Source: Streptomyces niveus
GTDB taxonomy: Bacteria; Actinomycetota; Actinomycetes; Streptomycetales; Streptomycetaceae
Direction of reading: 5' to 3'
Length of the DNA stretch: 64,000 nt
Assembly: GCF_002009175.1 (NCBI RefSeq)
Contig: NZ_CP018047.1
Coordinates: 3,968,001-4,032,000, forward strand
How positions within the stretch are numbered: position 1 is the stretch's first letter; each line of letters starts with the position of its first letter. Below, piece after piece: positions 21,813-35,814 of this stretch. Position numbers and translations under genes: made by a program. The notes under the pieces were generated by a model. It ran no database searches and had not been told where the DNA came from. It saw only the letters and a list, made by a program, of their open reading frames with translations.

Positions 21813-22706
21813 ATGCGTCTGAGCACTGTGATTCTTCCCGTCCGCCGCTGGCACGAGGGCGGTCGCGACGAGTGGTCGCGCGCCGAGGAGCTGGGTTTTC
21901 ACGCGGCGTACACCTACGACCATCTGTCGTGGCGCACCTTCCGGGACGGCCCGTGGTTCGGCGCGATCCCGACCCTGACGGCCGCCGCGGGCGCCACCAC
22001 CCGGCTGCGGCTGGGCACGCTGGTGACGTCGCCGAACTTCCGGCATCCGGTGACGCTAGCCAAGGAGCTGATCTCGCTGGACGACATCTCCGACGGCCGG
22101 GTCACCCTCGGGATCGGGGCCGGCGGGACGGGCTTCGACGCCGTGGTGCTCGGGCAGGAGCCCTGGTCGCCGCGTGAACGGGCCGACAGGTTCGCGGAGT
22201 TCGTGACACTGCTCGACCGGCTGCTGACGCAGGACGCGGTGACGGCCGAGGGGACGTACTACTCGGCGGTCGAGGCCCGCGACATCCCGGGGTGTGCGCA
22301 GCGCCCGCGGCTGCCGTTCGCCGTCGCCGCCACCGGGCCGCGCGGGCTGAGGCTGGCCGCGGCGCTCGGCCAGGCCTGGGTGACGACGGGGGATCCGAAG
22401 CTCTTCGAGTCGGGCACGGCCGAGGAGTCGCTGGAGGCGGTCCGCGGACAGATCGGCCGGCTCGGACAGGCGTGCGCGGAGATCGGGCGTGACGCGGCCG
22501 GTCTGGAGAAGATCCTCCTCAGCGGCTTCACGCCGGGGCGTCCGCTCGATTCGTTCGACGCGTTCGTGGACTTCGCGGGACGGCACTTCGAGCTGGGGAT
22601 CACGGAGATCGTGGTCCACGCGCCGATCCCGGACTCCGACTTCGCGATGGATCCGGCCCTGTTCGAGCGGATCGCCACGGAAGGGCTCGCGCAGCTCAGC
22701 CGCTGA
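21813..22706 (+). CDS. LLM-class flavin/F420-dependent oxidoreductase
   Basis: A 297-residue luciferase-like TIM-barrel protein. It starts MRLSTVILPVRRWHEGGRDE and has AAYTYDHLSWR, LRLGTLVTSPNFRHPVTLAK, SDGRVTLGIGAGGTGFDAV and RLPFAVAATGPRGLRLAA. These residues fit the F420-type branch common in actinomycetes; substrate unknown. The gene is convergent with kptA and their ends overlap by 11 bp (22696-22706). Confidence 0.88.
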   Translation: MRLSTVILPVRRWHEGGRDEWSRAEELGFHAAYTYDHLSWRTFRDGPWFGAIPTLTAAAGATTRLRLGTLVTSPNFRHPVTLAKELISLDDISDGRVTLGIGAGGTGFDAVVLGQEPWSPRERADRFAEFVTLLDRLLTQDAVTAEGTYYSAVEARDIPGCAQRPRLPFAVAATGPRGLRLAAALGQAWVTTGDPKLFESGTAEESLEAVRGQIGRLGQACAEIGRDAAGLEKILLSGFTPGRPLDSFDAFVDFAGRHFELGITEIVVHAPIPDSDFAMDPALFERIATEGLAQLSR

Positions 22707-23271
22707 AGCGGAGGTAGCGCGGCGGTACGGCGTCGGCCAGCCAGACGCCGTTGGCGCTCACCCGGAAGACATGGCCGTCGCGGTGCATCGCGCCCGCGTC
22801 CACGGGCAGGACGACGGGCCGGCCGCGGCGCGCGCCGACGCGGGTCGCCGTCTCGCGGTCGGGTGAGAGATGGACGTGGTGGCGGTTCATGGGCCGCAGG
22901 CCCTCGGCCCGGATCGCGTCGAGGCTGCGGGCGACGGTGCCGTGGTAGAGGTACGCGGGCGGCTCGGCCGCCGGCAGGTCCAGATCGACCTCGACGGTGT
23001 GGCCCTGGTTGGCGCGGATTCTGTCACCCTCGATGGTGAAGCGCCGTTTGTCGTTGACGGCCACGACATGGTCCAGCTCAGCGCGGGTGATGGGGAAGTG
23101 GTGGCCGGCCGTGGCGCGGAGCAGCGCGTCGACCTCCACCCAGCCGTTCGGGTCGAGCGTGAGGCCGATCCGCTCGGGCTGGTGTCGCAGGTGCTTCGAG
23201 AGATATTTCGACACCTTCACGGTGCGTCGCTCGTCGGGCGTTCCCGCACCCGGAGTTCGCGTTGTGGTCAT
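22696..23271 (-). CDS. kptA: RNA 2'-phosphotransferase KptA/Tpt1
   Basis: A 191-residue protein. Tpt1 motifs are KVSKYLSKHLRHQPERIGL, DPNGWVEVDALL, YLYHGT and NRHHVHLSPDRETATRVGARRG. The family removes a splice-junction 2'-phosphate from RNA using NAD+. Bacteria lack that tRNA splicing pathway, so the physiological substrate is uncertain; NAD-dependent RNA or ADP-ribose chemistry is possible. I use the ATG at 23271; an in-frame start 12 codons upstream exists. Its upstream region carries the 15-bp repeat array and DnaA boxes. Confidence 0.92.
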   Translation of the reverse strand: MTTTRTPGAGTPDERRTVKVSKYLSKHLRHQPERIGLTLDPNGWVEVDALLRATAGHHFPITRAELDHVVAVNDKRRFTIEGDRIRANQGHTVEVDLDLPAAEPPAYLYHGTVARSLDAIRAEGLRPMNRHHVHLSPDRETATRVGARRGRPVVLPVDAGAMHRDGHVFRVSANGVWLADAVPPRYLRFSG

Positions 23272-23340
23272 TCGCACAGCGTGCCCGGTGGTGCGGGCGG
23301 CCGCCACTCATTTCGGTCCGGTCTAGGGATCGTCCGGCCC

Positions 23341-23415
23341 GATCCGAAGTGCTGCGGTCCGAAGTATTTCGATCCGAGGTGCTTGGATCCGATCTCATCC
23401 GATCCGAAAACGATC
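23341..23415. repeat. Five tandem 15-bp iteron-like repeats
   Basis: Five units with an exact 15-bp period start at 23341, 23356, 23371, 23386 and 23401. Each starts G(A/G)TCCGA; the first three are the best conserved (GATCCGAAGTGCTGC, GGTCCGAAGTATTTC, GATCCGAGGTGCTTG). A degenerate sixth unit may follow (23416-23430). The array lies between the MerR gene and kptA and runs straight into a DnaA-box group. Confidence 0.85.
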
Positions 23416-23429
23416 AGTGCCGAAATGTT

Positions 23430-23483
23430 TGATCCACAGTCAACTCGGTTTATCCACAGGCTATTTGGCGAGTCTGTGGACAA
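23430..23483. promoter_or_regulatory. DnaA-box group beside the 15-bp repeats
   Basis: Three boxes within 54 bp: TGATCCACA (23430-23438, one mismatch), TTATCCACA (23450-23458, perfect) and TGTGGACAA (23475-23483, the reverse of the Streptomyces-preferred TTGTCCACA). The local sequence is AT-richer than its surroundings. Confidence 0.8.
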
Positions 23484-23495
23484 CTGCCGAGTGGA

Positions 23496-24440
23496 TTAAC
23501 CTATTTGGTCAAGTTGACCGCTCTGTCTGTGGGTTGCGGTCAGCGTGTCCAACGTCCTGGTCGCCAGCTCCCGTTCGGCCGCCGCCGCGATGAACGCCGA
23601 TGCGCTCTCCTCGCCAACCAGCGCTTGTACGGCGTCGATCGTGGCGGCCGGCAGCCGTACGGAACGGGTCCGCGCACCCGACGGCTCCGGGTCCTCGGCC
23701 ATCAGGTGCTGCTGGAGATGGCGCGTCGCGAACAGCCGCATGGCACGCGCCAGTTCGGCGTCCACGGTCTGCCGCGCGAGGGGCCGCAGCCTACGTACGA
23801 GCGACGCCGCCTCCGCCGCGTCCTCATCCGTCGGCGGGTGATGCCCCAGATAGCGCGCGAAGACGTGCTCGCTCGTGAACTCCAGGAAACGCGCGGCGAT
23901 GTGCTCGACCTGACCGCGAAGTTCCCGCAGATGGGCGGAGATCGCCGTCAGCGGGACCCCGGCCGCGTACAACTCGGCCGCCACCGAAAGCTCTTGGGGG
24001 CTCGGTACGAGGAATTCGTCGTCCCGGCCGGGAATCCGCTCCAGTACCCCCAGCTCCACCGCCTCGGCGAGGGCCGCGTCGTCGGGGGAGCCGCCGAACC
24101 GCTCGTCCAGCTCCGCGCGGGTGATCCGGGCGGCGTGCTCGTCCGTCCACGGCCCGTGCACCTCGGCGACCAGGCCGAGCACCCCGCCTAGACCGCGCCC
24201 AGCGGTCCACGCCTCCAGCAACTCCTTGATGGAGGCCAGCGTGTAGCCCCGTTCGAGAAGGTCCGCGATCTGCCGCAGCCGGGCCAGATGCGTGTCCCCG
24301 TACACATTGGCCCTGCCCCGCCGCTCGGGCGTCGGCAGCAGCCCCCGGTCCTGGTAGGCGCGGATGGTCCGGACCGTGGCGCCGCTCGCGTGCGCCAGGT
24401 CCTCGATCCGGTACCGGCCGCCCGCCGGGGTCCCCGACAC
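23496..24440 (-). CDS. MerR-family transcriptional regulator
   Basis: A 314-residue regulator. The N-terminal MerR domain reads YRIEDLAHASGATVRTIRAY, then a wing with GRANVYGDTHLARLRQI and a helix with GYTLASIKELLEAW. The long C-terminal region has no Cys cluster, so a small organic effector is likelier than a metal. The GTG at 24440 is 2 bp past the stop of the upstream metal-dependent hydrolase gene, implying translational coupling. It is the last gene of a four-gene cassette and may control it. Confidence 0.9.
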   Translation of the reverse strand: MSGTPAGGRYRIEDLAHASGATVRTIRAYQDRGLLPTPERRGRANVYGDTHLARLRQIADLLERGYTLASIKELLEAWTAGRGLGGVLGLVAEVHGPWTDEHAARITRAELDERFGGSPDDAALAEAVELGVLERIPGRDDEFLVPSPQELSVAAELYAAGVPLTAISAHLRELRGQVEHIAARFLEFTSEHVFARYLGHHPPTDEDAAEAASLVRRLRPLARQTVDAELARAMRLFATRHLQQHLMAEDPEPSGARTRSVRLPAATIDAVQALVGEESASAFIAAAAERELATRTLDTLTATHRQSGQLDQIG

Positions 24441-24442
24441 GC

Positions 24443-25387
24443 CTACCCCAGGGCGGCGCGGCCGACGGCACCGGCCGCCGCGCGGGCCGCAGGTGAGGTC
24501 GCGAGATAGTCGACGGCCCTGCGGAGCGAACCCTCCTGCGAGGGGTGGTACGACCGCCGGAAGTACCGGGGTACCGCCGAGCCCAGCTCCCGCCAGGTGG
24601 GCAACAGGCCCTTGGCGACAGCCCGGTTGTGCTCGCGCAGCGAGTAGCGCGGCCGGCCCGCGAGCTGCGGATCGTGCCGGATCAGATACGCCGCTCCCCA
24701 CCCCCAGAGCCAGAGCATCACCGGGGCGGTGACCGCCATCGTCTCCAGTCGGCGGGCGTAGCGCACCGGATCGGGGCCGCCGCAGTGCTGGTACATGTCG
24801 AAGGCCACCGACCGGTGTTCGACCTCCTCGGCGCCGTGCCAGCGCAGCAGGTCGAGCATGACCTCGTCCGCCCCCGCCCGGTCCAGCGCGTCCGCGCTCA
24901 GCACCCAGTCCCCCAGCACCGCCGTGAACTGCTCTATGGCGGCGACGATCGCCAGCCGGAAGCGCAGCCACTCCCGCTGGGGCCACGGCACCCCGAAGGG
25001 CGGCCTCTCGCCGAGAAGGATCTCGAAGAGGTAGTCGACGTGCCGGGTGTACGGCCCGGTGTCCAGCCGCTGCTCCGCGAGGTGGTTGAGCACATACGCG
25101 TGCTGCACGCTGTGCGTCGCCTCCTGGCCCATGAACCCCTTGACGTCCTTGAGCAGGACCGGGTCGTCGACCAGCGGCAGGGCTTCCTTGAAGACCTTGA
25201 CGAACCAGCGCTCGCCCGCGGGGAGGAGCAGATGCAGGACGTTGATGACGTGCGTGGCGGTGGGCTCGTCGGGTATCCAGTGCAGCGGGGTCTCCCGCCA
25301 GTCGAACGACACCCGCCGGGGAGCGATCTCATGGCCCTCCCCCCAAGGGTTCTCGCGCGGATCCCGGCCGTTCGCCGACGCGTTCAC
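24443..25387 (-). CDS. Metal-dependent hydrolase family (PF10118-like)
   Basis: A 314-residue protein rich in His and Glu. The motifs QEATHSVQHAYVLNHL and WHGAEEVEHRSVAFDMY could bind a di-metal centre as in helical-bundle oxidases or hydrolases. This fits the family annotated as predicted metal-dependent hydrolase, with unclear chemistry. One hydrophobic stretch, VMLWLWGWGAAYLI, could touch the membrane. The GTG start overlaps the upstream SDR-fusion stop by 4 nt (GTGA). Confidence 0.82.
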   Translation of the reverse strand: MNASANGRDPRENPWGEGHEIAPRRVSFDWRETPLHWIPDEPTATHVINVLHLLLPAGERWFVKVFKEALPLVDDPVLLKDVKGFMGQEATHSVQHAYVLNHLAEQRLDTGPYTRHVDYLFEILLGERPPFGVPWPQREWLRFRLAIVAAIEQFTAVLGDWVLSADALDRAGADEVMLDLLRWHGAEEVEHRSVAFDMYQHCGGPDPVRYARRLETMAVTAPVMLWLWGWGAAYLIRHDPQLAGRPRYSLREHNRAVAKGLLPTWRELGSAVPRYFRRSYHPSQEGSLRRAVDYLATSPAARAAAGAVGRAALG

Positions 25388-35265: not shown

Positions 35266-35814
35266 CCCACCAGGCTACCGGTGCATGCTTCCACCACCCC
35301 ACCCCATATTTCAGCGTGTGGCACTTTGTCTGAATTGCCGCAATTGGCGAGGGTGAGGAAAGCGTGAAAAGGAAGAGGCCACTCCGTCAATAATGGGCGG
35401 CCAATTCCCCGGAAAGGGGCATCGACGGGTCGTTCATTGACCCATTTCCCTTGCGGTGAACGGTACTTGGGCCGAGGTTGTCCACAGAGTCGTACCGGTT
35501 CGGAAAGTTATCCACAGGCTGTGTGGGGGATCTGTGGATCGAGCGCGAGGCCGCGGTGAAACCCCATGTGAGGGCGGGAGGATTCCCCCCTTAAACCCGC
35601 TTCACGCCCTCCTTCGAGTGGGACTTGATCCCTCTAACGAGTTGATCAACGGAATTGGGGTGACACGGGCCACCTGGCGCCCTGTGGACGGAAGTGTGGT
35701 GACTGAGCCGATTTGTCGACCATGTCGGACGGCACTGTCGACTTGTCCCCAGGGGGACCGGTCAGCCTGTGGATAACTTTGGGGACAGCGGACCCGGCCG
35801 CTGCCCCCGGCGGC
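35266..35814. other. 549-bp intergenic region holding a DnaA-box cluster
   Basis: No gene is seen between the serS start and the pheA stop. Perfect boxes are TTGTCCACA (35478-35486), TTATCCACA (35508-35516) and TGTGGATAA (35768-35776). One- or two-mismatch boxes lie at 35533-35541 (TGTGGATCG), 35683-35691 (TGTGGACGG), 35713-35721 and 35743-35751 (TTGTCCCCA). The known S. coelicolor D78 cluster, a high-affinity DnaA sink that limits replication initiation, was reported in the oriC-proximal region. Identity with it is inferred from location and sequence. Confidence 0.8.

Follow-up and report, generated by a model that had tools for sequence, protein, structure and literature searches.

A tandem repeat and three DnaA boxes lie side by side between kptA and a MerR-family regulator gene in the chromosome of Streptomyces niveus, and comparison with related genomes suggests that the two are separate. 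The array appears to be a copy-number-variable tandem repeat that has grown in the kptA-side spacer of this lineage, without a conserved role, and the boxes would form a fixed, origin-proximal DnaA-binding module of the titration kind; from sequence comparison we put the probability of this joint reading at roughly 0.64. The window, by which we mean the whole stretch of 64,000 nucleotides analysed, comes from the middle of a chromosome of 7,990,492 bp, and its relevant features are collected in the table.

Table. Features of the kptA-MerR intergenic region and of the second DnaA-box cluster, in window coordinates.
Feature	Position	Strand	Remark
kptA, RNA 2'-phosphotransferase (PF01885)	22696..23271	-	start faces array
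15-bp tandem repeat, five GRTCCGA units	23341..23415	+	between kptA and DnaA boxes
DnaA box 1, TGATCCACA	23430..23438	+	conserved type
Conserved CAA, spacer 1	23441..23443	+	mirrors TTG 23465-23467 across the midpoint of box 2
DnaA box 2, TTATCCACA	23450..23458	+	perfect
Conserved TTG, spacer 2	23465..23467	+	
DnaA box 3, TTGTCCACA	23475..23483	-	perfect, convergent with box 2
Open frame with MerR-family regulator	23496..24986	-	MerR_1 at residues 192-259
Second DnaA-box cluster, same convergent 25-bp pair	35478..35776		between serS and pheA

A first-pass annotation of this DNA had described five units of 15-bp period, each beginning G(A/G)TCCGA, and this description is accurate: the units start at 23341, 23356, 23371, 23386 and 23401, the array matches itself at 39 of 60 positions at lag 15, and shuffling the local 280 bp 2000 times never equalled that match. 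The periodicity is not due to chance. The units have diverged, with close repetition confined to their first seven bases (GRTCCGA), and Tandem Repeats Finder calls a repeat of period 15 at 23340-23392. At lag 15 the match level of the array is reached in the 64 kb window solely by 75-bp stretches starting at 23333-23341; four further places, near 3.05, 19.5, 39.2 and 41.5 kb, are equally periodic at other lags (18, 24 and 27), so that a repeat of this grade is not rare in the window. In the whole genome there are seven exact placements of GRTCCGA-N8-GRTCCGA, four of them in the array, two at 1877160-1877196 and one at 6792947, and with one mismatch there are 40, as opposed to 14 for the reversed control. 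The pair at 1877160-1877196 belongs to a second GGTCCGA run of 15-bp period (1877145-1877211), in which the intervening bases differ from those of the array. We also considered whether the units are degenerate DnaA boxes and rejected this, as even the closest 9-mer differs from TTNTCCACA at four positions and the unit cores differ from TGATCCACA at three or four.

The array varies greatly among relatives. Our locus set comprises 190 loci, fetched by way of kptA, a pattern, blastn or chosen coordinates and thus not a random sample, of which 157 carry the trio of DnaA boxes and 130, the window locus included, remain after removal of duplicates; in 123 of the 130 there is no GRTCCGA unit within 110 bp beside box 1, and the other seven have five (this locus), three, two, two, two, one and one. 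The closest named relatives as judged by KptA are Streptomyces sp. NP-1717 (97%), S. niveus (94%) and S. camponoticapitis (94%), and the three nearest have one, two and three units. Among eight loci compared, the distance from an anchor in KptA to box 1 is 226 bp here, 187 bp in NP-1717, 144 bp in S. niveus and 113 bp in both outgroups; in the alignment of this locus with its seven relatives the length difference falls mostly within the repeat zone, and the remainder consists of a few bases around that zone together with 24 bp in the 5' coding part of kptA in the two outgroups. Across 120 aligned rows (those with canonical gaps and sufficient flank) the array zone carries 0.20 bits of information, compared with nearly the full 2 bits in the boxes. 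The unit counts and anchor distances together point to a local, lineage-limited expansion. The annotation had held that absence of the array from relatives, along with a lack of binding by DnaA or the MerR protein, would suggest chance or a decayed repeat; the first of these is what we see at 123 of 130 loci, with one to three units in the nearest named relatives.

The trio lies outside oriC and occupies 54 bp. Its first box begins 14 bp past the last array unit, in agreement with the earlier description of three boxes, two of them perfect, within 15 bp of the array. Boxes 1 and 2 are in tandem, 20 bp apart from start to start, and boxes 2 and 3 are convergent, 25 bp apart; TTNTCCACA occurs seven times in the window, where 0.39 occurrences are expected. 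Box 1 is of a conserved type and has not decayed, since 108 of the 120 rows have TGATCCACA and the other 12 have TGGTCCACA. Mean information over these rows is 1.95, 1.99 and 1.98 bits for boxes 1, 2 and 3 and about 1 bit for the spacers, in which the CAA and the TTG are strongly kept; this mirror pair shows no covariation, and a hairpin formed from the mirror half-sites GCCAA and TTGGC was rejected because covariation does not rise above that of shuffles at any of the five pairs. A binding site for AdpA between boxes 2 and 3 was likewise rejected: the consensus TGGCSNGWWY, as it stands in an excerpt of a published account, is matched in full in none of the 120 rows, and TGGCS is present in 53. 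Just two of the 120 rows have an additional box ahead of box 1.

The full trio, with gaps of 10–11 and 16–17 bp, is present in 266 of 392 Streptomyces genomes, and 126 lack the strict form; among the matches listed there is at most one copy per genome and there are no control matches. Searching by blastn with a 230-bp query gives 281 of the 392, among the listed matches nearly always through the boxes alone, and a looser pair pattern gives 272, a count that takes in other sites too. In a separate draw a looser trio pattern is present in 59 of 105 Streptomyces genomes and absent from 46, and it is found in none of 144 genomes from the other 16 genera of the family, which evidently manages without the trio there. 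The spacing is rigid: even with a pattern permitting gaps of 9–13 and 13–19 bp, the first gap is 11 bp in 125 of the 130 loci and the second is 16 bp in 121. The trio core accompanies 65 of the best 80 KptA matches among named records, and each of the other 15 loci has two or more boxes with no more than one mismatch. In part of these 15 core-less loci, judged by eye, an aquaporin-like gene adjoins kptA; the same label for the gene inserted at locus L124 was not borne out. We note also that in one group, which includes S. katrae and S. goshikiensis, variant boxes replace the canonical trio about 1 kb from kptA (loci L131, L134, L147, L151, L152, L164, L175, L177, L191 and L193), the variant consisting of TTGCCCACA (TCGTCCACA in L151) followed by TTGTCCACA 21 bp on and TAGTCCACA 50 bp on.

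The position of the trio on the chromosome is also similar from genome to genome. In S. niveus the minus-strand gene dnaA is at 3,918 kb, and some 74 kb separate oriC from the trio, which is on the gene's 5' side. Distances could be taken in 41 of 51 genomes in which dnaA was located, 36 of them having the strict trio and the positions for the other five (G234, G270, G271, G297 and G406) coming from the pair pattern or from blastn; the trio lies 61–90 kb from dnaA, with a median of 72 kb, and is on the 5' side and the opposite strand in all 41. Ten genomes for which no trio coordinate was taken are left out of this count (G015, G092, G133, G142, G160, G175, G268, G314, G331 and G404), and in two of these, G142 and G268, dnaA is at a contig end. 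The constancy of the distance is in part a reflection of the general gene order near the origin. Perfect boxes are concentrated around dnaA: of 53 TTRTCCACA sites in the genome, as against 10 for the reversed control, 16 fall in the 2.5% that is no more than 100 kb from the gene. The gap between dnaN and dnaA is taken as oriC from its position, and at 3916889-3917461 it contains 13 boxes that differ from TTRTCCACA by no more than one mismatch, none of them perfect and three being TTCTCCACA; a review, in the part consulted, counts TTCTCCACA as perfect for Actinomycetes, which tells against presuming that the trio has a higher affinity than oriC. Two further DnaA-box clusters flank oriC, at 3895687-3895898 (about 21 kb away) and 3953336-3953424 (about 36 kb), the latter with a convergent pair 14 bp apart, as we find at the DARS loci of Escherichia coli (see below). 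A recurrent motif, TTATCCACAGATCGTC...TGTGGACAA, is present in several genomes (for example G119, G122 and G325) on the strand opposite to the kptA trio, mostly about 90–120 kb from it and 205 kb from it in G357; in G122 it is on the other side of dnaA.

The neighborhood of the trio bears on what it might do. The location of the MerR_1 domain within its open frame places the true start of the MerR gene inside that frame; the stop codon is at 23496-23498, 12 bp from box 3, and the trio ends some 158 bp before the kptA start. DnaA bound between these tandem genes might act locally, as a regulator of transcription or as a roadblock, and the closeness of the MerR stop, the position ahead of kptA and the lack of an intrinsic terminator all fit such a role; scans of 22600-24600, limited to sigma-70-like promoters and a simple search for intrinsic terminators, found neither. 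The trio is nevertheless maintained when these genes are not. Within 300 bp of it there are both kptA and a MerR gene at 98 of 130 loci, kptA without MerR at 22, MerR with kptA absent or far at nine, and neither at one, which has neither gene within 1.5 kb. At the ten loci without kptA inside 300 bp, the gene is absent from the fetched stretch in six and more than 1 kb off in four, and the MerR gene is absent from the fetched stretch at 23; absence here refers to what was fetched, mostly 1.5 kb per side, and at L108 the stretch stops 223 bp past the trio, the genome concerned (G002) having no KptA match at all. This persistence with either gene moved or missing indicates that the trio is independent of both, and the distance from the KptA anchor to box 1, which ranges over 113–226 bp in the eight loci, also argues against a local function, which we consider quite unlikely. 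The regulatory array for the MerR gene that was suggested earlier, like a role confined to kptA, is unlikely for similar reasons; the site is located where the MerR gene ends and not at its promoter.

A single composite site for replication control, made up of array and boxes and with the MerR protein or a further initiator occupying the repeats, is very improbable. The array is close to the boxes and its five units are in exact 15-bp phase, and plasmid iteron origins too have direct repeats adjoining DnaA boxes, which is the resemblance that the first-pass annotation had drawn. Here the repeats are chromosomal and not conserved, and no rep gene is found by Pfam among the five neighboring frames (KptA, MerR, luciferase-like, metal hydrolase and dehydrogenase/hydrolase), as the annotation had itself remarked; the iteron or plasmid-origin reading is thus unsupported, and the missing units at 123 of 130 loci, with few in the nearest named relatives, go far toward refuting the composite. 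The units are moreover direct repeats, unlike MerR operators, which are dyads. The proposal of a DnaA titration or replication-control element remains a good one for the boxes, and does not extend to array and boxes taken as a single element.

A second cluster lies 12 kb from the trio, between the genes for seryl-tRNA synthetase (serS) and prephenate dehydratase (pheA). This cluster is matched in 111 of 121 Streptomyces genomes, and in the best 20 loci, including that of the window, its boxes are at approximately 0, 30, 265 and 290, with extra boxes at about 55 in ten and about 303 in four, so that the convergent 25-bp pair can be present up to twice. The 34-bp convergent pair, with one mismatch allowed, occurs in 95 of the 101 Streptomyces genomes searched, where the control has no match, and across the family in 113 of 160 genomes and eight of 17 genera with one control match; many of the sites listed are at the kptA trio or at serS-pheA, others lie elsewhere in some genomes, and in this genome there are the two sites only, both with a tandem third box joined to the pair. 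Paired matches about 245 bp apart indicate that the serS-pheA cluster is probably present in another genus of the family (g20). The trio could be imagined to resemble the DARS sites of E. coli, with DnaA on convergent boxes 2 and 3, aided by box 1, shedding ADP and regaining ATP so as to promote initiation, and its strand order, a tandem pair plus a convergent box, is indeed that of the DARS core. In the parts of the published descriptions consulted, box I of that core is opposite to II and III, the spacing is equal in DARS1 and DARS2, and the head-to-head pair is essential; in E. coli K-12 we find triplets spaced 14 and 12 bp from start to start between bioD and uvrB and also upstream of mutH, which we infer to be DARS boxes I–III. 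The trio, like these, has three boxes at fixed spacing, but its start-to-start distances are 25 and 20 bp, the convergent pair being 11 bp wider, or about one helical turn. One in four random three-box layouts gives the same order, so that the likeness in strands is suggestive only, and the S. coelicolor clusters tested are described, in the excerpts consulted, as repressing initiation. We therefore regard a DARS-like function as unlikely, and as similarly doubtful the broader idea that the family's chromosomes share one design of origin-proximal site for DnaA control, a convergent pair with a 16-bp gap, which would remodel, recharge or switch DnaA beyond merely soaking it up.

We favor titration. 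The trio is most likely an origin-proximal DnaA-binding control site of the datA-like kind that helps to set the frequency of chromosome replication, as suggested by its wide conservation in the genus, its rigid spacing, its constant side of and similar distance from dnaA, and its independence of the neighboring genes. DnaA would bind the closely spaced boxes cooperatively; a single DnaA box is bound weakly by S. coelicolor DnaA according to the consulted part of a review. Lying about 72–74 kb from oriC, the trio would double soon after initiation and tie up DnaA, and re-initiation would thereby be damped, as with datA of E. coli and the clusters of S. coelicolor. The parallel with datA is that of an intergenic DnaA-box cluster outside oriC; in the partial accounts consulted datA limits initiation, and its minimal form consists of boxes 2, 3 and 7 with an IHF site. 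Our scan of E. coli K-12 beside the glycine tRNA genes gives five boxes, all but one of them on the same strand, at spacings of 55, 12, 162 and 12 bp. DnaA-box clusters in S. coelicolor and Bacillus subtilis, datA-like or near oriC, are said in passing by three papers to repress untimely initiation.

The kind of site is thus already known, as there are DnaA-box clusters near oriC in Streptomyces; those of S. coelicolor resemble the trio in having several boxes, in being outside and close to oriC, and in belonging to the same genus. Among the titles listed by literature searches none concerned this locus, and the rigid spacing, the restriction to the genus and the shared convergent pair were not met with in the literature examined. 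Smulczyk-Krawczyszyn et al. in 2006 reportedly described S. coelicolor DnaA-box clusters near oriC named H69, H24 and D78. The trio may already be one of the published clusters. Going by gene order, H69 would correspond to the dnaN-side cluster of this genome, at about 21 kb, and from the order of cosmids the D78 region could presumably include the kptA trio as well as the serS-pheA cluster. H69 is, in the part of a source consulted, the name of an S. coelicolor cosmid holding SCO3857.

The array is an example of how a variable repeat near a conserved site can mimic a plasmid origin. To our knowledge, the way in which initiation of replication is limited in Streptomyces, with many chromosomes in each hyphal compartment, is poorly understood, and a 54-bp module whose boxes and spacing hardly vary, similarly placed in most of the genomes of the genus examined, offers a small and exact experimental target.
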